A stretch of 64,000 nt of DNA, from positions 124,001-188,000 of the IMG/VR virus record IMGVR_UViG_3300029983_000007; one strand, 5' to 3'. A program made the position numbers and the translations under genes. Below, piece by piece: positions 1,887 to 63,609 of the stretch; position 1 is the stretch's first letter; each line of letters opens with the position of its first letter. This DNA is from a virus. Under the pieces are notes generated by a model. The model ran no database searches. It saw nothing but the letters and a program-made list of their open reading frames with translations, and was not told the origin of the DNA.

Positions 1887-3653
1887 TTAATCAATTGAAA
1901 CGTTATTAACAGGCTTGTATTTGTTAATTAATGTTTCTCTATTACTAAATCCTCTGCTTCTTGGACTCATGATAACAATAGGAGAACTTTGAGCAGCTTT
2001 ATAAACTGAAATTTTCATTTTACTAACAGCAAAATTTACTTGCTCATTCCATTGTTTGATATCATATTTATAAACTTCCTCCATTTTAGGGAAATAGTCA
2101 ATATTTAATGAATGATTTTTATAATCTAAAATCAAATCATCTCGTGTTTTTCTATCTCTAATTAAAGATGCACATATTCCACTTTGCACCCAATAATCAA
2201 TAGGATCTTCATTTGCATCAGGTAATTCTGCTGCAGGTTTAAATTTACCATTATATAAATCAAAAGGTACAATCTCATCTTTATACAATTCTGTGTTTAT
2301 ATAATCTGACAATTCATACAATTCAACTTTTGTCAAATCACCAATAATAGCATGAACACCAATTGATCCAATATCATGAAATGAAGCCCAGCCAAGAACT
2401 ATTTCAGTGTGATTTCCAGTTGATACAATACCACTTTTAAATCTGTGAGTATCTTCTAATCCTAACACAGTTCTTAGTACAGCATGAATTGATGCTTTAC
2501 CTGTATCACTTAATTCAGGTGAATCACTCATATGAATTTTATCAACTTCTAATATTTCATTGACTGTTGATTGAATAGGTTGCCAGTATGTATTTGTTCC
2601 TAATTTTTCGTCTAATTGAGTTACATAATCTTTTGATTTAGTATTCAATGAAGATGGATTAGATATAAATATTGTATGTTCTTTACCCATAGCACGATAA
2701 ACTAATGCTGCTACAATAGATGAATCAAGTCCTCCTGACACATGAACTTGAGCATTTTCAATTCCTGATAATTTGAAAAATTCTTTTTGTTCAAATAGAA
2801 TTGCATCAGTAATTTCTTTATATTTACTATCATCGCTACCTACTATTGGTTCACTTTTTTTTAGTCTGAATGTTTCAGTTGTTTCTTTAAATTTAGGTAG
2901 TTCTTTAACTAATCTACCATAACTATTATAGACAAGAGAACCTCCATCGTAAATTATAATATTTTTAACAATATCTCCACAACCAACAGAATTTAATGAT
3001 ACTACTGGAACCATATTATTTTTTGCAATTTTAGAAAATAAATTTTTTCTGATTTTTTGCTTACCATAATAAAAATATGATTGATTAGGTATAATTAAAA
3101 TTTCTGCCCCCATATTAACCATTTCTTGTGGTATGTCTCTATGATGGTTCATAAACCAAGAATCTTCACAAATTGGTATTCCTATGATAGTTTTACCTGC
3201 ATTTGGTAAGTAAACTTCAAAAACTTTAGTTTCAGTTCCTTCTGTGAAATATTTTCTATCTTCATGATGATCTGTATCTGCTAACAATTGTTTATCATAG
3301 GTACGAATTCCATCTTTATCAATTACCGCTACTGAATTTTTCAATATAGGAAATCCATTTCTGTTATTACCATGTGATGAAACGAATCCAACAATAATAA
3401 TACCATGTAATCCTATTTCTTTTCTGAATTTTTGAATTTCTTTCAATTTTGTGATTTGATCACGAATGAAATCTTCTCTATCCCAAAGAGAACCACAACA
3501 ATAACCACTAATAGCAGTTTCTGGGAAAACTGATATATCTACAAAATTTTTACTATCTAATTTTAAACAATCCATAATTTTTTGGGTATTTCCAATTAAA
3601 TCACCAGTGACTGTATTAATCTGATGTAACGAAATATTTGCATTTTCAATCAT
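1887..3653 (-). CDS. nadE: Glutamine-dependent NAD+ synthetase
   Basis: 588 residues, full length for the two-domain enzyme that amidates deamido-NAD using glutamine and ATP. The N-terminal nitrilase-type glutaminase shows its catalytic triad in context: Glu in FPETAISGY, Lys in YDKQLLAD and Cys in IPICEDSW. The C-terminal synthetase has the ATP P-loop SGGLDSS near residue 306, then STGNHTE and PAAELPDANEDPIDYW. Own promoter at 3681-3712 and terminator at 1835-1872, so it is a single-gene unit. Phage NAD biosynthesis genes are known from other large phages and can offset NAD-depleting defence. An NAD-consuming ADP-ribosyltransferase lies at 16446, but a functional link is inference. Confidence 0.96.
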   Translation of the reverse strand: MIENANISLHQINTVTGDLIGNTQKIMDCLKLDSKNFVDISVFPETAISGYCCGSLWDREDFIRDQITKLKEIQKFRKEIGLHGIIIVGFVSSHGNNRNGFPILKNSVAVIDKDGIRTYDKQLLADTDHHEDRKYFTEGTETKVFEVYLPNAGKTIIGIPICEDSWFMNHHRDIPQEMVNMGAEILIIPNQSYFYYGKQKIRKNLFSKIAKNNMVPVVSLNSVGCGDIVKNIIIYDGGSLVYNSYGRLVKELPKFKETTETFRLKKSEPIVGSDDSKYKEITDAILFEQKEFFKLSGIENAQVHVSGGLDSSIVAALVYRAMGKEHTIFISNPSSLNTKSKDYVTQLDEKLGTNTYWQPIQSTVNEILEVDKIHMSDSPELSDTGKASIHAVLRTVLGLEDTHRFKSGIVSTGNHTEIVLGWASFHDIGSIGVHAIIGDLTKVELYELSDYINTELYKDEIVPFDLYNGKFKPAAELPDANEDPIDYWVQSGICASLIRDRKTRDDLILDYKNHSLNIDYFPKMEEVYKYDIKQWNEQVNFAVSKMKISVYKAAQSSPIVIMSPRSRGFSNRETLINKYKPVNNVSID

Positions 3654-3680
3654 AATATGTGAATGTTTTTAATTTTACTA

Positions 3681-3712
3681 CAAAAATACATATAATAATT
3701 GACATAAACAAA
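3681..3712 (-). promoter_or_regulatory. Bacteroidota-type promoter of nadE
   Basis: On the minus strand TTTG (3712-3709) is followed by exactly 20 bp and TATTTTTG (3688-3681), fitting the -33 TTTG / -7 TAnnTTTG consensus of Bacteroidota primary-sigma promoters. The start codon is 28 bases downstream of the -7 box. Confidence 0.65.
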
Positions 3713-3737
3713 AAATTCATAATATAATTATGAATTT
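3713..3737 (-). terminator. Hairpin between tail adhesin and nadE
   Basis: An 11-bp perfect stem (AAATTCATAAT/ATTATGAATTT) with a 3-base loop abuts the nadE -33 box. It may terminate transcripts of the tail genes arriving from the right, or act as an operator because of its position. It lacks a strong U-tract. Confidence 0.4.
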
Positions 3738-3794
3738 AATCGAGTAATTAAATATAGTTGTGAAATCTTTTATTATTTTTATTTAATGTGTTAT

Positions 3795-6428
3795 TTACAC
3801 TCTTATCAAACGAAGAGGACAACCAAAAGTTTTTAACACTGCAATAGTAGCATTCGTATTAGAATTATAATTTAAATCCATAGCACCACCATTTATAGAA
3901 GCAGTTTCAAAAATAGTCCAAATTAATGATCTGTTATTTAGTGCTTGATTATTAGATGCCCTATAGCCAGTGCCTAATGCACTAAAACCACTACTATTAT
4001 CAGCATTCGTATTTGGAGTTAACCAATAAGTTAGTCCTTCTTTCTTTAGTTTTCCACCTACAACACCAATTCCACCTAAATAAGTACTAAGAGTATTATA
4101 ATTAGCTATATCTGGAACTTTCCAACCCCAAGGAGTTGATGGATTAGCAGCATTATAGTAATCTATGTCCATTTGTAATAATTTAACAGCAAACCAATTA
4201 TATAATTTACCGTATACAGCTCCAATAGCAGCATCATTATTATAATAACACCACATAGCTGCTGCTTTAACTGCTGCATAAGTTTTCTGTTCTACTGTGC
4301 CTGTGGTTTGTGCATAAATAGCATCATACAATTCTTGGGAATTTGACCAACCAACTTCTTGGAGAGATATATTATCTATAGAACCTAAAAATCCACTGGT
4401 ACTATTTATACCTATACTAGTAGATGTAGAAGTAACGTATAGATATCCAGTATATATACCAATACTTGTCTTTAAACCAGTAGGACTACCAAATAAAAGT
4501 TGAACATTTCCACTAATTATATTCTTTATTTCGTATGAGTACTTATACCAAGTATTAATTTTAATTACCATGCCTTGATAGATATAAATTCCATTTGTTG
4601 CTGAATCAATATCTATAAATCCTGATGTATTCCAAGTAGCAATACCCCCATTTAATATCCAATTATTTAAGTTAGTATCAAATCCTCCATTAACAACTTT
4701 TTCAACACTTACATTAGGTTGAACATTATTAATCAAATTACCCCGTGGTGTACATGTCATCTCACAATTAGAAGATTGCCATTGTTGAGTACCAATCGTT
4801 ACATTAGGTATTTCAGGATATAAATTCTTAATAAAATTTGACTCTGCTAAAACTTGCGTAGATGTTAATGCTTGTGAACGTATAATATGAGCTGCTATAG
4901 AACCTTTAAATGGCGTTTGATTAGTAATAGCCGTCATCAAACAACTAAAATTAATAGAAGTTATAACTATTGGTAAAGTTTCAAATAATGTACCATTAAT
5001 ATAAATATCTAGTGTATTATCACCTTTAGCAACTATAGTAATTATTGTATTTTTACCTATTAGAAAATCAACCTTTTTTAATGTTGCTGTTACTTGGGAC
5101 AGTGTATTTCTTATCTTTAAAGTTCCTGATAAATTATCAAATCCAAACAAACTTCCACTACTACTATTGTCACTAGCATAAAAATTGGAAGTAGGTTCCC
5201 TTGATGTTGTAACATTAACTAAAGTAGTCATACTCCAAGCATCCGTAGCGGAAAAACTAATTATTGGATGAATTAAATAATTCTGAGATCCGCTAGGATT
5301 CTTAATATATGGATTTTCATTTGGAGCAATAGTTCCAAGATAAAATGGATATGAAGAACCCCCAACACTAGATAAATCTAAAGGATCACCTGATAATACT
5401 TCTTTAATTGATACATTATCGATACTTAAAGTAGTAGTTCCAACAGCCATTAACCATAATGTTATGCTTGTAGCTACAAAAACCTCTGAAAATATACCAT
5501 TAGTTTTTCTTTGCGTTCCTACTCCAGTACTCGAATTTAACAGAATAGCACCTAATACATAATTAGAAATTTCAAATACTAATTTATATTGTTTTCCAAC
5601 AGTTAATATAGTACTCTGAGTTATATTTATTCCTGATGCTACGTTTAAAAAATTAGCAGTTCCTCCACTAATAGTAATACCTGCTCCTTTACTCCAAACT
5701 GTATCAGTATCAAATCCACCGTTAACGACTTTTTCAACAGTATCTAAAACCTCTGTTCCTTGTGAAGTAATAGAGTAAAGTTTTTTAATATTATTTGATG
5801 TATTAGCAATACTCCCCCCAACACCAAGCCAACCCAGTTTAATAGAATCGTACATATTATTTAACTTACACATTTTAATGTAAGAAGTTGTATTAACTTC
5901 CAATAATTCCCTAACTGAAATATTTTTAAAACTTGCTGATAATCCTAAAGTTGTTGTACTTATAACAAACCCTATGTATAAAACAGTTGAAGTTGAAGTA
6001 AAAATCATTGACGTACTGGAACTTGAAAGTAAAGTGTTATTTACAATAAGATGACTTAATGAGGAGTTTAAAGAAATACGATAAACTGCACTTGTATCGC
6101 CATACAAAAAATCAAAAGATACCTTATACTTTTTTCCTACTTTAGTATTAAAGGCTTGATAGAAATAGCCATAATTATTTGAACCATTGGTAATTTTTAA
6201 ATAACTTGCATCTAAACTTAAAATTGAGGCGTTACCTGTAACCCACCCTTCTATACTACTTCCACCACCATTGGTTACTAACTCAGGTCCGAAATTAGTG
6301 TTATCCCCTAACACTCCACCATCCGCTACAACCCTATCTTTATAGGTATTAAATAGAGATAATGCAGAATTATAAAAATTCCACATTACTCTACCTGCCA
6401 TTGCTAGTTGTTCTCTAAATAAACTCAT
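3795..6428 (-). CDS. Tail fibre tip/adhesin with FISUMP and jelly-roll-like domains
   Basis: 877 residues. At least two internal copies of a carbohydrate-binding-like module begin VVNGGFDT and end SIDN(V/I)S(I/L)(K/Q)EV (about residues 230-345 and 575-690); a related segment lies near residues 50-175. A concanavalin/LamG-like stretch lies at about 360-540, followed by NVTIGTQQWQSSNCEMTC, which is the start of a FISUMP (Fibrobacter succinogenes major paralogous) domain. That domain resumes after a module insertion as AAMWCYYNNDAAIGAVYGKLYNWFAV-type sequence and ends GCPLRLIRV. Last gene of the tail block, 3 bases after the large fibre gene, so probably the receptor-binding tip. No signal peptide. 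The exact receptor is unknown. Confidence 0.75.
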   Translation of the reverse strand: MSLFREQLAMAGRVMWNFYNSALSLFNTYKDRVVADGGVLGDNTNFGPELVTNGGGSSIEGWVTGNASILSLDASYLKITNGSNNYGYFYQAFNTKVGKKYKVSFDFLYGDTSAVYRISLNSSLSHLIVNNTLLSSSSTSMIFTSTSTVLYIGFVISTTTLGLSASFKNISVRELLEVNTTSYIKMCKLNNMYDSIKLGWLGVGGSIANTSNNIKKLYSITSQGTEVLDTVEKVVNGGFDTDTVWSKGAGITISGGTANFLNVASGINITQSTILTVGKQYKLVFEISNYVLGAILLNSSTGVGTQRKTNGIFSEVFVATSITLWLMAVGTTTLSIDNVSIKEVLSGDPLDLSSVGGSSYPFYLGTIAPNENPYIKNPSGSQNYLIHPIISFSATDAWSMTTLVNVTTSREPTSNFYASDNSSSGSLFGFDNLSGTLKIRNTLSQVTATLKKVDFLIGKNTIITIVAKGDNTLDIYINGTLFETLPIVITSINFSCLMTAITNQTPFKGSIAAHIIRSQALTSTQVLAESNFIKNLYPEIPNVTIGTQQWQSSNCEMTCTPRGNLINNVQPNVSVEKVVNGGFDTNLNNWILNGGIATWNTSGFIDIDSATNGIYIYQGMVIKINTWYKYSYEIKNIISGNVQLLFGSPTGLKTSIGIYTGYLYVTSTSTSIGINSTSGFLGSIDNISLQEVGWSNSQELYDAIYAQTTGTVEQKTYAAVKAAAMWCYYNNDAAIGAVYGKLYNWFAVKLLQMDIDYYNAANPSTPWGWKVPDIANYNTLSTYLGGIGVVGGKLKKEGLTYWLTPNTNADNSSGFSALGTGYRASNNQALNNRSLIWTIFETASINGGAMDLNYNSNTNATIAVLKTFGCPLRLIRV

Positions 6429-52949: not shown

Positions 52950-53272
52950 TGTTTTTTTATTAAATGAAGTTCATCTAACCATTGTATAAATTTTAATCTA
53001 TCTTCAGGTATACCTCTAAAAAATTTGCCACCAATGTTGATATATGATTTATTTTCTTTGCTATATCTTAAAATTTCAAAATAACCAATATCTTCGTCTT
53101 CGTCATATTCTAATGTAATTTTAATTGTTGAAAATTTTTTACCTGGATAAACAAATTTGTGTTCATCCCACAATGAGTTCCAAGCTTTTCCAACCTGTGA
53201 ATATGTCATCTTATATTGTTTAATTTCTTTGTCTGTGTATTGCTCAGATTCAAATGTTTTTAAGTGCTTCAT
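52934..53272 (-). CDS. Small protein with MKHLKTFE N-tag
   Basis: 112 residues. N-tag MKHLKTFESEQ. The body shows TYSQVGKAWNSLWDEHKF and a beta hairpin DIGYFEILRYSKENKSYINI. The end LIKKQKREI lacks KFN(I/L) and only loosely resembles the basic motif. Its C-terminal codons lie in the terminator. Function unknown. Confidence 0.68.
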   Translation of the reverse strand: MKHLKTFESEQYTDKEIKQYKMTYSQVGKAWNSLWDEHKFVYPGKKFSTIKITLEYDEDEDIGYFEILRYSKENKSYINIGGKFFRGIPEDRLKFIQWLDELHLIKKQKREI

Positions 53273-53289
53273 GTTATTATATATTAAAA

Positions 53290-55194
53290 TTATTTTATTT
53301 TTTTCTTTAATGAATCAAGTTCTTGTAACCACATATCAGTTTCAGTAGTAGATAATATTTTATCTATCTCAATTTTTATTTTTTCGTAAGTGTCTTTTAA
53401 CTCAGATAATTTTTCTGTTGATAAACTAATTAATGATATATTAATTAAATAATCATAACTATCTTTATACATTTCAATTTTGTTATTTTCAATCTGTGAT
53501 ATTATTTTTTCTTTTGTTTTATTTTCAAAAATTATATCTTTTTTTAATACACAATTGATAAATTTCATTTTATTTATAATATACTTTTTCTGCTCTTCAA
53601 ATTTGTATAATATATTTTTCTTTCTCAAATTATAAAAATTTGTTCTTATTTTAACAAAATCATCAATTATATCATATTGATCTTTATAAAAATATATTTT
53701 ACCTTCTTCATTGAACAAATTCATATTATTAATACTTATATAAGAATCAAGATTGAATTTTTTAATTATCATTTCATCTGTTAATTCACTCAATATATCT
53801 TCTGATATAGTAATTACAATGTTTATGCTATCATCTGTACAATAATTATCATAATCTTTGATGTATTTTTCATCTATGAGTTTATCTAAATATTCAAAGT
53901 ATTTATCATTCCACATCATTATTGGTAATTCTAAAATGCTTAGTTTATTTTTGCCTAATTTCTTAAATATTCCTCTTGATATATATCTTTTATTATTTAA
54001 ATCAGGAATAATTTCACCTTTGAATCCATTATACCAAGGTATTAACTCTATGTTTTTCTTACTCTTTTTCAAATAATTTTGAATATATGTTATTACATCA
54101 GTAGGATTGAATGATGGTATGTTAGTTGACCAACCAGTACCTATACCTTCAGCATTATTTATTAATATCATAGGTATTATTGGTATATAATTTTTTGGCT
54201 CTATTTTGTATCCATCATCAATAAGATATTCTAATAAATCATCATCTTCTGATTTGAATATATATTTAGTTATTTCGTTTAATTTGGTGAATATATATCT
54301 AGGAGCAGATGCGTCTTTTCCTCCTTTTAATCTGGATCCAAATTGTCCTACTGGTTCCAACAGATTTAAGTTGTTTGATCCTATGAAATTTTGAGACATT
54401 GAAATTATTGCTTGTTCTAAAGATGTTGATCCATTATGATATGCTGATAAACTTATAATATCACCACATAATTGGCTTACTTTAATTTCATTTTTAAAAT
54501 TCTTTTTTAGTAAAGTGTAAAGTATTTTTCTTTGAGATGGTTTTAATCCATCTATCATTGATGGTATTGATCTTATATTATCCGCCATACTAAACTCTAT
54601 GAATTCATTATTGAAAAACGAGTCATATGTTTGTTTTGTTTTAAATTTATCAAAATCTACATTAGACTTATAATTTAATAACCATTCTTTCCTATCCTCT
54701 ACTCTTTTTTTGTTGAATGCCAAATCTATCATATCTCTTTCTTTGATTATATCAGATGAGTTGAATTTTATTAAATGCTTATTTAAATCTTTAAAAAATA
54801 ATTTAATCTCAAATGGCTCCAAAGTACCAAGACCTTTTAACCATTTTAAGTGCCATTCAGAATATTCTGTTTTGCTTTTCCATTTTTGATAATCATATGT
54901 ATTATAAAAATATTGTGTTTTACCCTTTTTTGTAGCTTTTACTACTGGGGTAATAAATTGATATAAAAACTCAAGTTGTAATAATTCGGGCCAGTATTTA
55001 TCAAAAAAATTTAGTAGAAGCCCAGATATGTGAGAACCGTCACAATTATGAACCAATATATTATCTATTTTATTTTTAGATATAAAAAACGAATTATCAT
55101 CTTCTACTTTAATGTCATACATTATAGTATCTTTGCTTTCTTTTTTTATTTCATCAATATTTAATATTTCATAATCATTTAGATTTATTTTCAT
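53290..55194 (-). CDS. Topoisomerase II, C-terminal fragment with split-intein C-half
   Basis: 634 residues. Residues 1-50 are the C-terminal half of a split intein: YDIKVEDDNSFFI (block F) and DNILVHN followed by Cys51 (block G). Residue 51 on is CDGSHISGLLLNFF, the second half of the TOPRIM DxDxDG site. Then WLKGLGT, DGLKPSQRKILYTLLK and the cleavage domain with the catalytic Tyr in ASAPRYIFTKL (residue 300; 758 after splicing), ending with a helical gate region and DMWLQELDSLKKK. Spliced to the 56462-58264 product it gives a 1092-residue single-chain enzyme of eukaryote-like type IIA, whereas T4 uses separate gp39 and gp52. Essential for DNA topology in replication. Confidence 0.93.
   Translation of the reverse strand: MKINLNDYEILNIDEIKKESKDTIMYDIKVEDDNSFFISKNKIDNILVHNCDGSHISGLLLNFFDKYWPELLQLEFLYQFITPVVKATKKGKTQYFYNTYDYQKWKSKTEYSEWHLKWLKGLGTLEPFEIKLFFKDLNKHLIKFNSSDIIKERDMIDLAFNKKRVEDRKEWLLNYKSNVDFDKFKTKQTYDSFFNNEFIEFSMADNIRSIPSMIDGLKPSQRKILYTLLKKNFKNEIKVSQLCGDIISLSAYHNGSTSLEQAIISMSQNFIGSNNLNLLEPVGQFGSRLKGGKDASAPRYIFTKLNEITKYIFKSEDDDLLEYLIDDGYKIEPKNYIPIIPMILINNAEGIGTGWSTNIPSFNPTDVITYIQNYLKKSKKNIELIPWYNGFKGEIIPDLNNKRYISRGIFKKLGKNKLSILELPIMMWNDKYFEYLDKLIDEKYIKDYDNYCTDDSINIVITISEDILSELTDEMIIKKFNLDSYISINNMNLFNEEGKIYFYKDQYDIIDDFVKIRTNFYNLRKKNILYKFEEQKKYIINKMKFINCVLKKDIIFENKTKEKIISQIENNKIEMYKDSYDYLINISLISLSTEKLSELKDTYEKIKIEIDKILSTTETDMWLQELDSLKKKIK
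55045..55194 (-). other. Split intein, C-terminal half
   Basis: 50 codons at the start of the topoisomerase C-fragment gene. The conserved C-terminal His-Asn followed by +1 Cys is present (LVHN then C). Confidence 0.9.
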
Positions 55195-55345
55195 CTTTAT
55201 TCATATCTTTTTTTATTAAGTGCTCAATATATTTTGATTTGTTTATATTATTATCTTCACAAATTTCATCTAATATATTATCTAATTCAATATTTATAGA
55301 TACTGATAATGTTTTCTTTTTGTCTGTTATTGTTGGTCTTCCCAT
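55175..55345 (-). CDS. Ribbon-helix-helix protein, leftward
   Basis: 56 residues. MGRPTITDKKKTLSVSINIE is the strand, followed by two helices LDNILDEICEDNNINK and SKYIEHLIKKDM. RHH (CopG/Arc-like) fold. Overlaps the start of the topoisomerase C-fragment gene by 20 bases, so it could be co-transcribed with it. Divergent from a second RHH gene at 55445. The sequence SKYIE(H/Y)LI is shared by all four RHH genes of the window except for minor changes. Confidence 0.75.
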   Translation of the reverse strand: MGRPTITDKKKTLSVSINIELDNILDEICEDNNINKSKYIEHLIKKDMNKDENKSK

Positions 55346-55358
55346 TGTGTTTTTGTTT

Positions 55359-55370
55359 TTATATATAAAA
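55359..55370 (-). promoter_or_regulatory. Candidate phage-type promoter, leftward
   Basis: Minus-strand TTTTATATATAA, 13 bases before the leftward RHH start codon. Faces the element at 55414 in a 99-base divergent region that may be the RHH operator. Confidence 0.38.
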
Positions 55371-55413
55371 TATTAACTAATTTGTTTGAAAATAGATAAA
55401 AATGAAACTTTTT

Positions 55414-55426
55414 TATTTATATATAC
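55414..55426 (+). promoter_or_regulatory. Candidate phage-type promoter, rightward
   Basis: TATTTATATATAC, 18 bases before the ATG of the rightward RHH gene. Confidence 0.42.
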
Positions 55427-55444
55427 TATAAAAATGCTAAGAAT

Positions 55445-55606
55445 ATGAAAAAACCAATCACAAAAAGAAAAGTTTCTATCTCAATAAATAGTGAAGTATA
55501 TAATTATATTGAAGATAGATTTGAAAATAAATCTAAATATATTGAATATTTAATATATCAAGATATATTAAAATGTGGCAAATTAAAAAAAGATATAATA
55601 TTATGA
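55445..55606 (+). CDS. Ribbon-helix-helix protein, rightward
   Basis: 53 residues: KRKVSISINSEVYNYIEDRF, then ENKSKYIEYLIYQDIL. RHH fold without the GRP start of the leftward one. Its TGA overlaps the ATG of the HNH endonuclease (ATGA at 55603). The counterpart in the cassette at the right edge (63689) has the same FENKSKYIEHLIYKD core. Confidence 0.75.
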   Translation: MKKPITKRKVSISINSEVYNYIEDRFENKSKYIEYLIYQDILKCGKLKKDIIL

Positions 55607-56430
55607 TATTAGATACTGAAATATTATTTAATGTGAGTAATAAAAATAAAGCACATTTGATATGCAAAGGTTATGATGTGACTCACAAAGATGTTATAAT
55701 TAAAGTTGAAGATTTGCCTACATATAGTCATTATAAAATAAAAGTAAAATGCGATATATGTGGAACTGAAAAATATTTAGGAAATCATAAATATATGAAA
55801 AACACAAGACTTAATACTAAAGATTATTGTTGTTGTCAAAAATGTGGAGTTAATAAATTACTTGATACATTTAAAGAAAATTACGGGTGTATAAGTAGTC
55901 AACATCCTAATATCAAATTAAAGCAAGAGAAAACAAATATCGAAAGATATGGTAGTAAATCTTGTCAATCAAATAAAGAAATTAAACAAAAATCATATGA
56001 TACTATGATAAAAAAATATGGTGTAAAATATTCATTACAGAATAATGAAATAAAAAAAAAGTTTATGTTAAAAATAGATGATACTGTTAAAAAAACTAAT
56101 ATTACAAAAGTTCAAAGAGGAGTAATGGTAGATTATGATAATTTTAGTTCATTTAAAGATTATAGAAAATTAGTTGATATAGAAACAAGAAGAAACAAAA
56201 AACTATTATATGAAGAATGGAATGGACTTGATTTTTATGATAATGAATATATTGGTGAAAATTTAAATTTAAATTATAGAGATAAATTATATCCATCTAT
56301 AGATCATAAAATATCAATATTGAATGGATTTTTAGATGATATTGATCCTTATAGTATTGGTAATATTACGAATTTGTGTATAACAACAAGAACAAATAAC
56401 TCAAAGAAGAATTCTAAAAATGTGTTCTAA
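55603..56430 (+). CDS. HNH-type homing endonuclease in the topoisomerase gap
   Basis: 275 residues from the ATG overlapping the RHH stop; an upstream frame start at 55573 lies inside the RHH gene. N-terminal ribbon (VKCDICGTEKY...CCCQKCG, about 50-90); two TNIERYGSKS/TMIKKYGVKY units (about 115-160); and an HNH-like C-terminus with LYPSIDHKISILNGF, then IGNITNLCITTRTNNSKKN. Lies between the two intein halves of the topoisomerase on the opposite strand, the arrangement of 'fractured genes'. It probably once targeted the intein site. Confidence 0.82.
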   Translation: MILDTEILFNVSNKNKAHLICKGYDVTHKDVIIKVEDLPTYSHYKIKVKCDICGTEKYLGNHKYMKNTRLNTKDYCCCQKCGVNKLLDTFKENYGCISSQHPNIKLKQEKTNIERYGSKSCQSNKEIKQKSYDTMIKKYGVKYSLQNNEIKKKFMLKIDDTVKKTNITKVQRGVMVDYDNFSSFKDYRKLVDIETRRNKKLLYEEWNGLDFYDNEYIGENLNLNYRDKLYPSIDHKISILNGFLDDIDPYSIGNITNLCITTRTNNSKKNSKNVF

Positions 56431-56442
56431 ATATTATTAAAT

Positions 56443-56476
56443 AAAAGAAAGAGATAAATAATTATCTCTTTCTTTT
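56443..56476. terminator. Bidirectional terminator
   Basis: 14-bp stem AAAAGAAAGAGATA/TATCTCTTTCTTTT, 6-base loop, between the convergent endonuclease and topoisomerase N-fragment genes. It contains the last codons of the intein half. Confidence 0.82.
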
Positions 56477-58264
56477 TAATATTTTATCAGTAATTAATAT
56501 TTCTTTGACTTTTACTAATATAATTTCATTGTTTCTTAATATTGGAATCTCATGATTTTCACTAAATGTATATTCATATCCATTGATATTTAATTTTATT
56601 ATATTAGTCTTGTGAGTTTCAATTATATTGAGTATTTTTTTCCATTCATTGTTGTGTGTTAAAACTTCATCGTCATAATTAATATCTTTTATTGCTACAT
56701 ATCCTCTTTTAGTTAGAACTAACGTATTTTCTTCTATACAATCAGCATCTGTCATCATTATAACTTTACCGTATCTTAATGTTCTTGTTGATGTGTATTG
56801 TTTACCAAATTCTAATCCTAATATTTTTATAATTGAAGTAATTTCATCGTTTTCTCTCATTTTTTGTATAGAAACATCCCTTACATTCAATGGTTTACCC
56901 TTAAGAGGGTATATTCCATAATAGTCATTTCCAACAACTGATAATCCTGCACGAGCTGTTGATTTTGCTGAATCTCCTTCAGTTAGTATTAATCCACATT
57001 TCATGCTATGTGGTTGCTTACCTGCCATATTAGCATCATCAAGCTTCGCTATTTTAACTTTAATTTTCTGATTATTCTGAGTTGATTTCTTAGCATCTTG
57101 TAATTCTTTGAATGATGCAAAATTTACTATGTCATTTTTTATTTGAGATGACATAAGTTTTTTGATAAATGAATCTGAAACAGTTACATCTTTGATGATT
57201 TCAGTTATCATTCTTGTAGTTAGATTTTCTTTTGTTTGTGTTTCAAATGATGGATTAGGAATTTTACAACTAAGAAATAAAAATAAATGATTTTTGATCA
57301 TTGATTGTTTAACGCTTGTTGATTTTATTTTATCATCAAGTGATTTGGTGATTTGATTAGTTATGTAATTAACATGAGTACCTCCAATATGAGTAGATAT
57401 TCCATTTACCATTGATACTTGTTGAAACATATCATTAGGTGTGCGTGCTATACCGACTTCCCAGTTCTCATTTATTTTTTCGTAGAAGAACTCTTCATCA
57501 TCATTGATAAACATCTTCATGTAATCTTTAAATGACTTGATAGGTATTAATACATCATTATAGTAGACTTTAACTCCAGTGCTATAAGCTGCAATGTCAA
57601 TAGCTCGTTTTAAAAATATTGATTGAATTTCATCTGTTATTTCAGTTAGATTAAATTTTTCAAAATCTGGATAATATGTAATTTTTGTGTAATTTTTGTC
57701 TGATGTAGTTATTTTTGGCTTAGTTTTATCAGACATATTATTGGTGAATGTTTGAATGTATTTATGCTTACCATCTGCAGTTTCAATTGTAAATTTCTTT
57801 GAGAATATGTTAGTTGTTTTTATTCCAATTCCATGTGTACCACCAACCATCCTTTTATCATCGTCCGTGAAATTCTCCCCCGTGAGCAAATTTCCGAAAA
57901 TCAACTCACACACATAAATTTTATGTTCTTTGTGCATAACAATAGGTACTCCTGGTCCGTCGTTTTCAATTGTTATGTGGTCTTTATCTACGTTTATCTT
58001 GATGTATTTGACTTGACCATCTGTTCTGATGTAATGATCTGATGCATTGGTTAATGCTTCATCGAATAGTTTAATAAATCCTGCATTATAATTTACTTCT
58101 TTATATACAAATTTGTTGTCTTTAATTTCATTAATATCTTCAAATACATACATTTTGGTTGGTTCAGTATATATATTTCCAATATACATTCCTGGTTTTT
58201 TTAATACGTGTTCAATTGGTGTTAATTTCTTATATCTATCCTCTATTGTTTTTTTATTCATCAA
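56462..58264 (-). CDS. Topoisomerase II, N-terminal fragment with split-intein N-half
   Basis: 600 residues. GHKL ATPase: FDEALTNASDH near 70, NDGPGVPI near 105 and GGTHGIGIKTTNIFS near 140. A transducer domain with QTKENLTTRM follows. TOPRIM starts with LILTEGDSAKST (429) and continues through PLKGKPLNVRDV to VIMMTDAD at 508. The extein ends there, and residues 509-600 are an intein N-half beginning CIEENTLVLTKRGYVAI. Its missing part, CDGSHI, is at the start of the fragment at 53290. The spacing of EGDSAKS...LNVR resembles eukaryotic topoisomerase II more than gyrase. Inactive unless spliced with its partner, because the metal site is cut. Confidence 0.94.
   Translation of the reverse strand: MMNKKTIEDRYKKLTPIEHVLKKPGMYIGNIYTEPTKMYVFEDINEIKDNKFVYKEVNYNAGFIKLFDEALTNASDHYIRTDGQVKYIKINVDKDHITIENDGPGVPIVMHKEHKIYVCELIFGNLLTGENFTDDDKRMVGGTHGIGIKTTNIFSKKFTIETADGKHKYIQTFTNNMSDKTKPKITTSDKNYTKITYYPDFEKFNLTEITDEIQSIFLKRAIDIAAYSTGVKVYYNDVLIPIKSFKDYMKMFINDDEEFFYEKINENWEVGIARTPNDMFQQVSMVNGISTHIGGTHVNYITNQITKSLDDKIKSTSVKQSMIKNHLFLFLSCKIPNPSFETQTKENLTTRMITEIIKDVTVSDSFIKKLMSSQIKNDIVNFASFKELQDAKKSTQNNQKIKVKIAKLDDANMAGKQPHSMKCGLILTEGDSAKSTARAGLSVVGNDYYGIYPLKGKPLNVRDVSIQKMRENDEITSIIKILGLEFGKQYTSTRTLRYGKVIMMTDADCIEENTLVLTKRGYVAIKDINYDDEVLTHNNEWKKILNIIETHKTNIIKLNINGYEYTFSENHEIPILRNNEIILVKVKEILITDKILKRKR
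56465..56740 (-). other. Split intein, N-terminal half
   Basis: 92 codons. Cys1 (CIEENTLVLT, block A), VAIKDINYDDEVLT, then block B-like YTFSENHEIPIL. No endonuclease domain inside. Together with the 50-residue C half it makes a mini-intein of 142 residues. Confidence 0.92.
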
Positions 58265-58372
58265 ATTTTAATTAATTTTTACATTGTATATATCTTAAAA
58301 ATTATGTAAAGTTTTGATTTATAATATAAAGAGTGAAAATATGATGATTTACAATGATATATATGTTAAAAA

Positions 58373-58687
58373 TTAAATATTATTTAATTTTTCTATCTTC
58401 AATTTTCTACATATTTTTTGATGGTATGATTCTATAAATTTTTCAAAATCTTCAAAATTTAGAAATTCTTGTTTAAGTTCAACATGAGGATAAGGTGCTG
58501 TACTATATATGTTTTTATGAAAACATATTACTTCATTAGAGTATTCATCCATATATGAATTTATGTTTATATAGCCACCATTTTCTCTTATGATATAATA
58601 ATTTGAACATCTAAGTTTATAGCCAATTGATGTTATAAGTTTTAATACACGGTCATCAATGTAATCTTTGCTTAAATGATCATTCAT
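58373..58687 (-). CDS. Tandem paralog with basic C-terminus, 104 aa
   Basis: DRVLKLITSIGYKLRCSNYYIIRENGGYININ-type start, then QEFLNFEDFEKFIESYHQKI and end CRKLKIEKLNNI. Aligns with the next gene throughout. Coupled by ATGA overlap. Function unknown; belongs to the C-terminal RKxKLxxL group. Confidence 0.68.
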   Translation of the reverse strand: MNDHLSKDYIDDRVLKLITSIGYKLRCSNYYIIRENGGYININSYMDEYSNEVICFHKNIYSTAPYPHVELKQEFLNFEDFEKFIESYHQKICRKLKIEKLNNI

Positions 58688-63432: not shown

Positions 63433-63609
63433 TTACTCATTATTATCATTTTTTTTGTTATCTTTGTTTATTAAGTATGTAATATATTCTGATTTTGATA
63501 AATTATTTTCAATTAAATAAGTTTCTAATTTTTCATTTAACTCTTTGTCAATAGTAATACTCATCGTTGTTTTTTTATTTTCCTTTTTTGGTCTACCTAC
63601 GTCTGACAT
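63433..63609 (-). CDS. Ribbon-helix-helix protein, leftward, second cassette
   Basis: 58 residues. MSDVGRPKKENKKTTMSITI, then DKELNEKLETYLIENNLSKSEYITYLINKD. The GRP start and helices parallel the leftward RHH at 55175. Divergent from the RHH gene at 63689 across 79 bases. Confidence 0.75.
   Translation of the reverse strand: MSDVGRPKKENKKTTMSITIDKELNEKLETYLIENNLSKSEYITYLINKDNKKNDNNE

Follow-up and report, generated by a model that had tools for sequence, protein, structure and literature searches.

Divergent ribbon-helix-helix genes recur beside unrelated homing endonucleases and, in one large virus record, lie between topoisomerase halves that carry a putative split intein

Why should two small genes for ribbon-helix-helix (RHH) proteins stand back to back beside a homing endonuclease gene in the middle of a viral topoisomerase? 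The question is raised by the window, a stretch of 64,000 nucleotides that makes up positions 124001-188000 of the 330,208-base virus record IMGVR_UViG_3300029983_000007. Here RHH-B, RHH-A and a putative HNH-type nuclease gene lie together, and a reading of the letters alone (the original prediction) had proposed that the three form a mobile RHH-RHH-endonuclease cassette. Our analysis showed that the pairing of RHH genes with nucleases is real, general and not due to chance. It also showed that the nuclease behind the pair is exchangeable, so that the conserved unit is the RHH module and not the triple; the proposed recurrence stood in this respect, and the triple as its unit did not. The features of the locus, in window positions, are as follows.

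55175-55345, minus strand: RHH-B, an open reading frame (ORF) of 56 aa, MGRP type; the gene shares its final 20 bases with the beginning of the topoisomerase C-half
55346-55444, no strand: divergent control region of 99 bp, with an A-rich block at 55389-55408 and, at 55415-55429, the promoter-like element TATATATA for RHH-A and the nuclease
near 55354-55372, opposite strand: similar promoter-like element for RHH-B, seen in the sequence
55445-55606, plus strand: RHH-A, an ORF of 53 aa that heads the nuclease operon
55603-56430, plus strand: putative HNH-type (His-Me finger, H-N-N) homing endonuclease of 275 aa, so named from phrog_12131, DUF7487, invariant residues and the structural model
56465-56740, minus strand: N-intein of 92 aa, beginning CIEENTLVLTKRGYVAIKDI, after topoisomerase ...MMTDAD
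55045-55194, minus strand: C-intein of 50 aa, ending MYDIKVEDDNSFFISKNKIDNILVHN, before extein C of CDGSHISG
56462-58264, minus strand: topoisomerase N-half (GyrB-like ATPase and first Toprim part) fused to the N-intein; Pfam DNA_gyraseB 2.7e-22, HATPase_c, Toprim
53290-55194, minus strand: C-intein fused to the topoisomerase C-half (remaining Toprim and GyrA-like part); Pfam DNA_topoisoIV 3.6e-105, TOPRIM_C 2.1e-31

The two RHH genes form the divergent pair that had been predicted, but they point away from one another rather than facing each other. The nuclease ORF is listed from 55573. Its likelier start is the ATG at 55603, because relatives begin at the homologous methionine, and with this start the gene overlaps the RHH-A stop as ATGA, in agreement with the original prediction. 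Both flanking ORFs are pieces of one type II topoisomerase. The placement of the cassette in the gap between the halves was therefore borne out, while the split intein that makes the gap had been overlooked. No group I intron or other known RNA was found at Rfam gathering scores in 53000-58600.

A seven-row RHH-A alignment led to 65 viral loci, 55 of them distinct after removal of identical RHH-A and nuclease proteins (some are still near-identical, such as L094 and L095 at 99.3%). An ORF of at least 90 aa lies directly downstream of RHH-A in 50 of the 55; 49 of these ORFs fall into nuclease clusters and one is a methyltransferase. The other five loci comprise L053 with nuclease pieces, L067 and L079 with C-terminal nuclease remnants, L087 whose nuclease hits the contig end, and L069 with none. 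A nuclease (49) or a broken or contig-cut one (4) thus follows RHH-A immediately in 53/55 distinct loci, and by profile count 42/55 have a divergently oriented RHH-B-like gene next to RHH-A. RHH-A has a longer basic arm in most of the 13 loci without RHH-B, and is perhaps a one-protein form there. All six strong RHH-A genes of the 330-kb record precede a nuclease, one of which is truncated (record 211793-212356). Eight of 60 further RHH loci were opened, all on new contigs, and a nuclease adjoins the RHH gene in six, not in L182 and L199. The neighbourhoods whose search the original prediction had proposed are therefore recurrent, and its counter-case, RHH genes that elsewhere never lie beside an endonuclease, is clearly not what was found.

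The two genes are also closely coupled. Of the 50 loci that have an ORF downstream, 44 show an in-frame nuclease ATG at −11 to +3 from the RHH-A stop; five loci have no in-frame ATG near the stop, and the lone methyltransferase starts at +14.

The nucleases found in this position are unrelated to one another. The largest cluster consists of repeat/Vsr-type nucleases (22, plus two own copies of the window's record; c2, L088 and L102 were checked by profile), whose catalytic ends differ among members by eye. A DUF7487-HNH cluster has six members and three own copies. There are two GIY-YIG sets: one of seven, named by motif only (7/7) since its profile match has no stated function, and one of six plus one own copy. 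The HNH/endonuclease VII-like cluster has five members, of which two were scanned, one matching endonuclease VII and the other nothing. The remaining clusters are single members, including a LAGLIDADG nuclease (L052, 2.8e-8).

Other arrangements were seen around RHH genes. After RHH-A, L061 has a DNA adenine methyltransferase (3989-5058) instead of a nuclease, and in L069, where RHH-A has no nuclease, a methyltransferase of similar kind follows at 750 bp. A lone RHH-like ORF overlaps a GIY-YIG nuclease as ATGA in L033 (2257-3326), with no divergent partner seen there. Two tandem same-strand RHH ORFs stand directly before an HNH relative in L134 (4472-4938), a different layout of the same idea. 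The RHH-like segment of L032 (2186-2977) is part of a 263-aa ORF, beside which no adjoining nuclease was seen. Small secreted-looking ORFs occur between RHH-A and RHH-B in L038 (4233-4904) and, in L141 (5477-5863), where the RHH pair would sit. A transposase-like ORF (IS5-like by eye) was noted in the phage record at L010 6138-7001, near the truncated nuclease copy.

We identified five locus pairs in which a homologous RHH module is followed by a non-homologous nuclease. L055 and L091 share 87% DNA identity over 2617-4168, including RHH-B and RHH-A, and the match ends at the nuclease start, behind which one has a GIY-YIG and the other a Vsr-type enzyme. Only the stretch from RHH-B to RHH-A is common to L056 and L057 (80%), L056 ending inside its nuclease. 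The module and the flank past the nuclease are common to L086 and L089 and to L047 and L052, while the nucleases between are unrelated (GIY-YIG/HNH and GIY-YIG/LAGLIDADG, respectively). At the topoisomerase intein, the window has an HNH and L140 a Vsr-type nuclease, each under an RHH pair. Nuclease type is not randomly distributed on RHH-A: 25 of 54 nearest neighbours have the same type, against a shuffled mean of 12. This indicates that exchange of the nuclease is frequent but not free.

These exchanges bear on the idea that the RHH proteins are DNA-targeting partners, which would associate with the nuclease to direct or curb its cutting and would not regulate the nuclease gene. RHH proteins bind DNA as a class, and the strict coupling of the RHH-A and nuclease starts would suit such a partnership. 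However, near-identical RHH-A proteins (93% and 84%) serve unrelated nucleases, which leaves little space for a specific RHH-nuclease contact. Moreover, some of the nucleases have their own repeats, such as NUMOD3 and DUF723, which are presumably DNA-binding, and L141 has a nuclease without the RHH pair. We consider this explanation very unlikely. The original prediction had offered that the RHH proteins repress or guide the endonuclease; repression is the better supported of the two, and no evidence of guiding was found.

The proteins themselves resemble known repressors. RHH-B matched phrog_876 (transcriptional repressor, 1.3e-8) and phrog_582 (Arc-like repressor, 3.4e-4) among the PHROG profiles, and Pfam RHH_1 and RHH_3 at 0.013 and 0.022, below the cut-off. 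For RHH-A, the best PHROGs match was 0.094, there was none in Pfam, and a sequence search of solved structures gave no match. Its AlphaFold model has a mean predicted local distance difference test score (pLDDT) of 85.9, with helices at 16-25 and 29-44 following a basic strand region; the strand is unassigned in this single-chain model. The closest structure by VIA was the Arc repressor (1bdv, Z 4.8 over 45 of 53 residues; the next had 2.6), while Foldseek alone reported Arc only at E 7.9. The predicted structure of RHH-A is thus consistent with the strand-helix-helix fold. Arc/CopG RHH repressors are known from plasmid copy control. Like them, the window proteins are small, basic and strand-helix-helix, with Arc as the best structural match; unlike them (phrog_876, phrog_582), they are tied to nuclease genes and not to lysogeny or plasmid copy number.

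The ratio of nonsynonymous to synonymous substitution rates (dN/dS) was 0.08-0.24 for RHH-A in nine pairs and 0.08-0.25 for RHH-B in four. These are the 13 usable tests out of 16; in the other three, one pair for RHH-A and two for RHH-B, dS was saturated. Purifying selection acts on both genes. With the window protein as a single narrow query, a weak test, RHH-A had no match at E 0.01 in 50,697 records of named phages, and the same limit applies to bacterial and archaeal genomes, where 30 pattern matches included no relative.

RHH-A and the nuclease could also form a toxin-antitoxin-like pair, in which RHH-A would neutralise the nuclease and the two would be kept by addiction. The order seen here, with the RHH gene first, the nuclease second and translation coupled, is like that of type II toxin-antitoxin operons, and one weak profile match of RHH-A to the MazE antitoxin was found (19.4 bits, against a cut-off of 65). 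Against this, a single RHH-A family precedes unrelated nucleases, the tail of RHH-A after the fold is only short, PADLOC gave no defence-system match for the three window proteins, and most Vsr-type nucleases exist without an RHH gene. Such an addiction pair appears highly improbable.

The window nuclease had been predicted to be an HNH endonuclease, and the match to phrog_12131 (homing endonuclease, 5.4e-15 in a PHROG profile search) together with an invariant D-H/N/N motif agrees with this. Pfam DUF7487 was matched at 2.1e-8, and D234, H235, N257 and N266 are invariant in a 12-row alignment of relatives. The model is well predicted at residues 181-260 (block pLDDT 93-97), and its strand 231-235, strand 258-262 and helix 263-269 are consistent with the HNH motif. 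No significant match for the nuclease was found in the PDB, where a sequence search of solved structures gave one meaningless match, and Foldseek with the model returned nothing significant, an HNH colicin DNase standing at rank 4 (E 4.1). The protein looks most like an HNH-type (HNN) homing endonuclease, and this name fits it best. Membership in the Vsr-like (EDxHD) split-intein nuclease family was considered and rejected, as the HNN motif is present instead. Lactococcus phages AM1 and LW81 have annotated homing endonucleases (phrog_12131/DUF7487) with which the window nuclease has its N-terminal region in common; it differs from them in its C-terminal HNN catalytic part and in being free-standing between intein halves. 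It would be expected to cut cassette-free alleles and to home.

The gap in the topoisomerase can be explained by the intein halves at its edges. The N-half runs from MMTDAD straight into the 92 residues that begin with CIEENTLVLTKRGYVAIKDI; there is a C at the splice junction, and CIEENTLVLTKRGYVAIKDI and F-S-E-N-H stand in the places that we take to be block A and the block B histidine (TxxH-like). Pfam Hint_2 matched residues 509-551 at 2.2e-4 (22.1 bits, under the cut-off of 28.4). On the other side, 50 residues end with ILVHN and are followed by the extein CDGSH; TIGR01443 intein_Cterm scored 12.5 bits, under its cut-off of 15.6. When the exteins are joined they read MTDADCDGSHISG, which matches intact homologues and which we take to be the Toprim metal-binding site motif. 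Intein-free intact topoisomerases were found in L138 (1096 aa) and in LR756501, a 735-kb phage record (1082 aa). Contigs L140 and L141 have this split intein at the corresponding position, so that it is known from three contigs with the window. The junctions DAD/C...VHN/C thus indicate that the topoisomerase is cut in its Toprim active site by a split intein, and the halves would be expected to rejoin as protein by trans-splicing.

Because the topoisomerase halves carry the intein halves, the cassette occupies the place where inteins carry an endonuclease. This is the arrangement of the "fractured genes" reportedly described by Dassa et al. in 2009 (NAR 37:2560), in which the two parts of a split intein flank a free-standing endonuclease gene. 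The window resembles these in that an intein splits a conserved gene at its active site and a homing endonuclease gene stands free between the two parts, as also in L140 and L141. It differs in that the nuclease, apparently of HNH type, is preceded by a divergent RHH pair that has a promoter region of its own, and in that L140 holds a Vsr-type nuclease at the same site under a similar pair. A different split intein was noticed at the EGD/S site of a related topoisomerase in L139 (317-3594), with a free-standing nuclease-like ORF beside it and no RHH gene in the examined stretch. The EGD/S site of another related topoisomerase, in L202 (2471-4988), has a split or interrupted intein with no nuclease-like ORF seen between its parts.

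We collected 40 divergent regions and dropped one duplicate; 38 were long enough and were cut to 30 representatives (<70% identity). In 39/39 distinct regions it was possible to anchor a TATATA element at a conserved position before RHH-A. The TATATATA element is not peculiar to the cassette, as it precedes other genes of the window too. Upstream of the RHH-A promoter element, matches in the 39 regions exceeded shuffles at lag 10 (z 4.3) and lag 11 (z 5.5), and neighbouring lags were also raised (lag 8, z 4.7; lag 9, z 3.0). Among the 30 representatives, five regions were significant (p<0.05) at lag 10 and five at lag 11, as compared with 1, 0, 2 and 0 at lags 8, 12, 14 and 16. The repeat unit varies by locus, being AAAAATAATTG in L049, AAAAATATGTG in L058 and CTAAAATTAAT in L071, as would be expected of operators that change together, and the conserved block and the repeats adjoin the promoter-like element. 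The evidence for a candidate operator is partial, and weak for the window copy.

On the other side, RHH-B lies near or overlaps the following ORF in many loci. In L140, the topoisomerase C-half starts beside the RHH-B stop. Since RHH-B overlaps the C-half by 20 bases in the window and adjoins it in L140, the divergent region probably transcribes the C-half.

Taken together, we propose a split intein with a homing cassette that combines a portable RHH control module with an exchangeable endonuclease, the RHH proteins shutting the nuclease promoter; we give this reading a probability of roughly 60%. The intein would interrupt the Toprim active site, and the topoisomerase halves would be rejoined by protein trans-splicing. 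The nuclease would cut intein-free topoisomerase alleles of co-infecting phages, by which the insert would spread. RHH-A would be the first product of the nuclease promoter, its translation coupled to that of the nuclease. Its dimers, with RHH-B, would then bind the control region and shut the promoter, so that the nuclease appears in a short, limited pulse. RHH-B would drive the other side of the control region, being co-directional with the C-half that it overlaps. The order of RHH-A before the nuclease, with stop and start overlapping or nearly touching in 44/50, fits a negative autoregulation that limits the nuclease.

A precedent exists in phage T4, where I-TevI represses its own late promoter through its own DNA-binding part, as described in PMC2988022. 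By this analogy, our best reading of the RHH proteins is that of dedicated autorepressors, which would confine nuclease expression to a short time in the way that I-TevI limits its own. The likeness to I-TevI and other T4 intron endonucleases would be that a DNA-binding protein holds down nuclease expression from an operator that overlaps the promoter of the nuclease. The difference is that the I-TevI nuclease is its own repressor, whereas separate RHH proteins, common to unrelated nucleases, are proposed here.

Several observations weigh against this reading. The 10/11-bp repeat signal comes from a third of the 30 regions, and in the divergent region of the window cassette repeats do not reach significance (p 0.49 at lag 10, 0.76 at lag 11). 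The rise at lags 10 and 11 is absent from 17 other upstream regions of the window, but this control wrongly included the window's RHH-B side and copy 2. In L141, the same nuclease (69% identical) is found in the same intein and RHH genes were not found there, so the nuclease does not need the module. An RHH-A-like gene lies directly upstream in only 4/62 distinct Vsr-type nuclease loci (80 were found and 62 distinct ones scored; two had no ORF and the rest were duplicates). Two of six loci found with the HNH query have an RHH gene directly upstream, in both cases of other RHH types, and many homing endonucleases found by family search in the window's record fall outside the RHH-A loci. Some nucleases thus carry the module as an extra, and it is not required by all.

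The RHH genes are also still present at loci whose nuclease is defective or absent (L067, L079 and L069), which fits either a role beyond nuclease control or a lag in decay. Such a role could be immunity or exclusion, in which a resident RHH protein would repress the nuclease of an incoming related cassette, or regulate a neighbouring phage gene, the link to nucleases arising through common insertion sites. The persistent genes, the position of RHH-B at the following ORF and the presence of six RHH-A copies together in one record would all agree with this. On the other hand, RHH-A is coupled to the nuclease itself, and the exchange points fall between RHH-A and the nuclease. As the main role of the pair we regard immunity as unlikely, and control of the nuclease promoter remains the preferred reading.

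In a bolder form of the latter, the conserved mobile unit would be the module of RHH-B, promoter and RHH-A and not the nuclease; the module would capture and time homing endonucleases of any fold (HNH, GIY-YIG, Vsr-type, LAGLIDADG) and make cassettes that have an operator in common immune to one another. At the topoisomerase, the module would also provide the promoter for the C-half of a split protein that is essential, and a phage that lost the module would lose its topoisomerase as well. We put this forward tentatively, as a possible but doubtful extension.

Homing endonucleases are classic selfish genes of phages. We found no description of a module of RHH/CopG/Arc repressors and homing endonucleases in the open-access PMC literature searched, which accords with the earlier statement that no described pairing of RHH twins with homing endonucleases was known. 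In the accessible part of PMC10448857, on phage homing endonucleases, the word "ribbon" is absent, and for T4, PMC2988022 presents the translational control of the remaining free-standing homing endonucleases as not obvious and as still to be addressed. Nucleases that repress themselves and split inteins that have free-standing nucleases are both already known; the shared, exchangeable RHH module is apparently new as far as we have seen. If the proposal is true, a two-protein control that is common to unrelated nucleases and survives nuclease swaps would be a new layer of homing-endonuclease biology, in which regulation is modular and separable from cutting. The module would link split inteins to gene regulation, and the question of why selfish nucleases restrain themselves could be put directly to the test on small proteins, on short operators and on matched pairs of loci that occur in nature.

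A second copy of the cassette is present at the end of the window.

63433-63609, minus strand: copy 2 RHH-B, 58 aa
63689-63853, plus strand: copy 2 RHH-A, 54 aa
63853-64000, plus strand: copy 2 nuclease, 432 aa, phrog_559 type, continuing past the window end

DNA polymerase B was also found to be split, with an N-part (L011 5472-6953; record C1:111471-112952) and a C-part (L013 from 4643; record C1:23642 on) about 87 kb apart. The ends of these parts are not intein-like, and each part adjoins homing endonuclease genes. Helical tails at both ends may rejoin the two halves.

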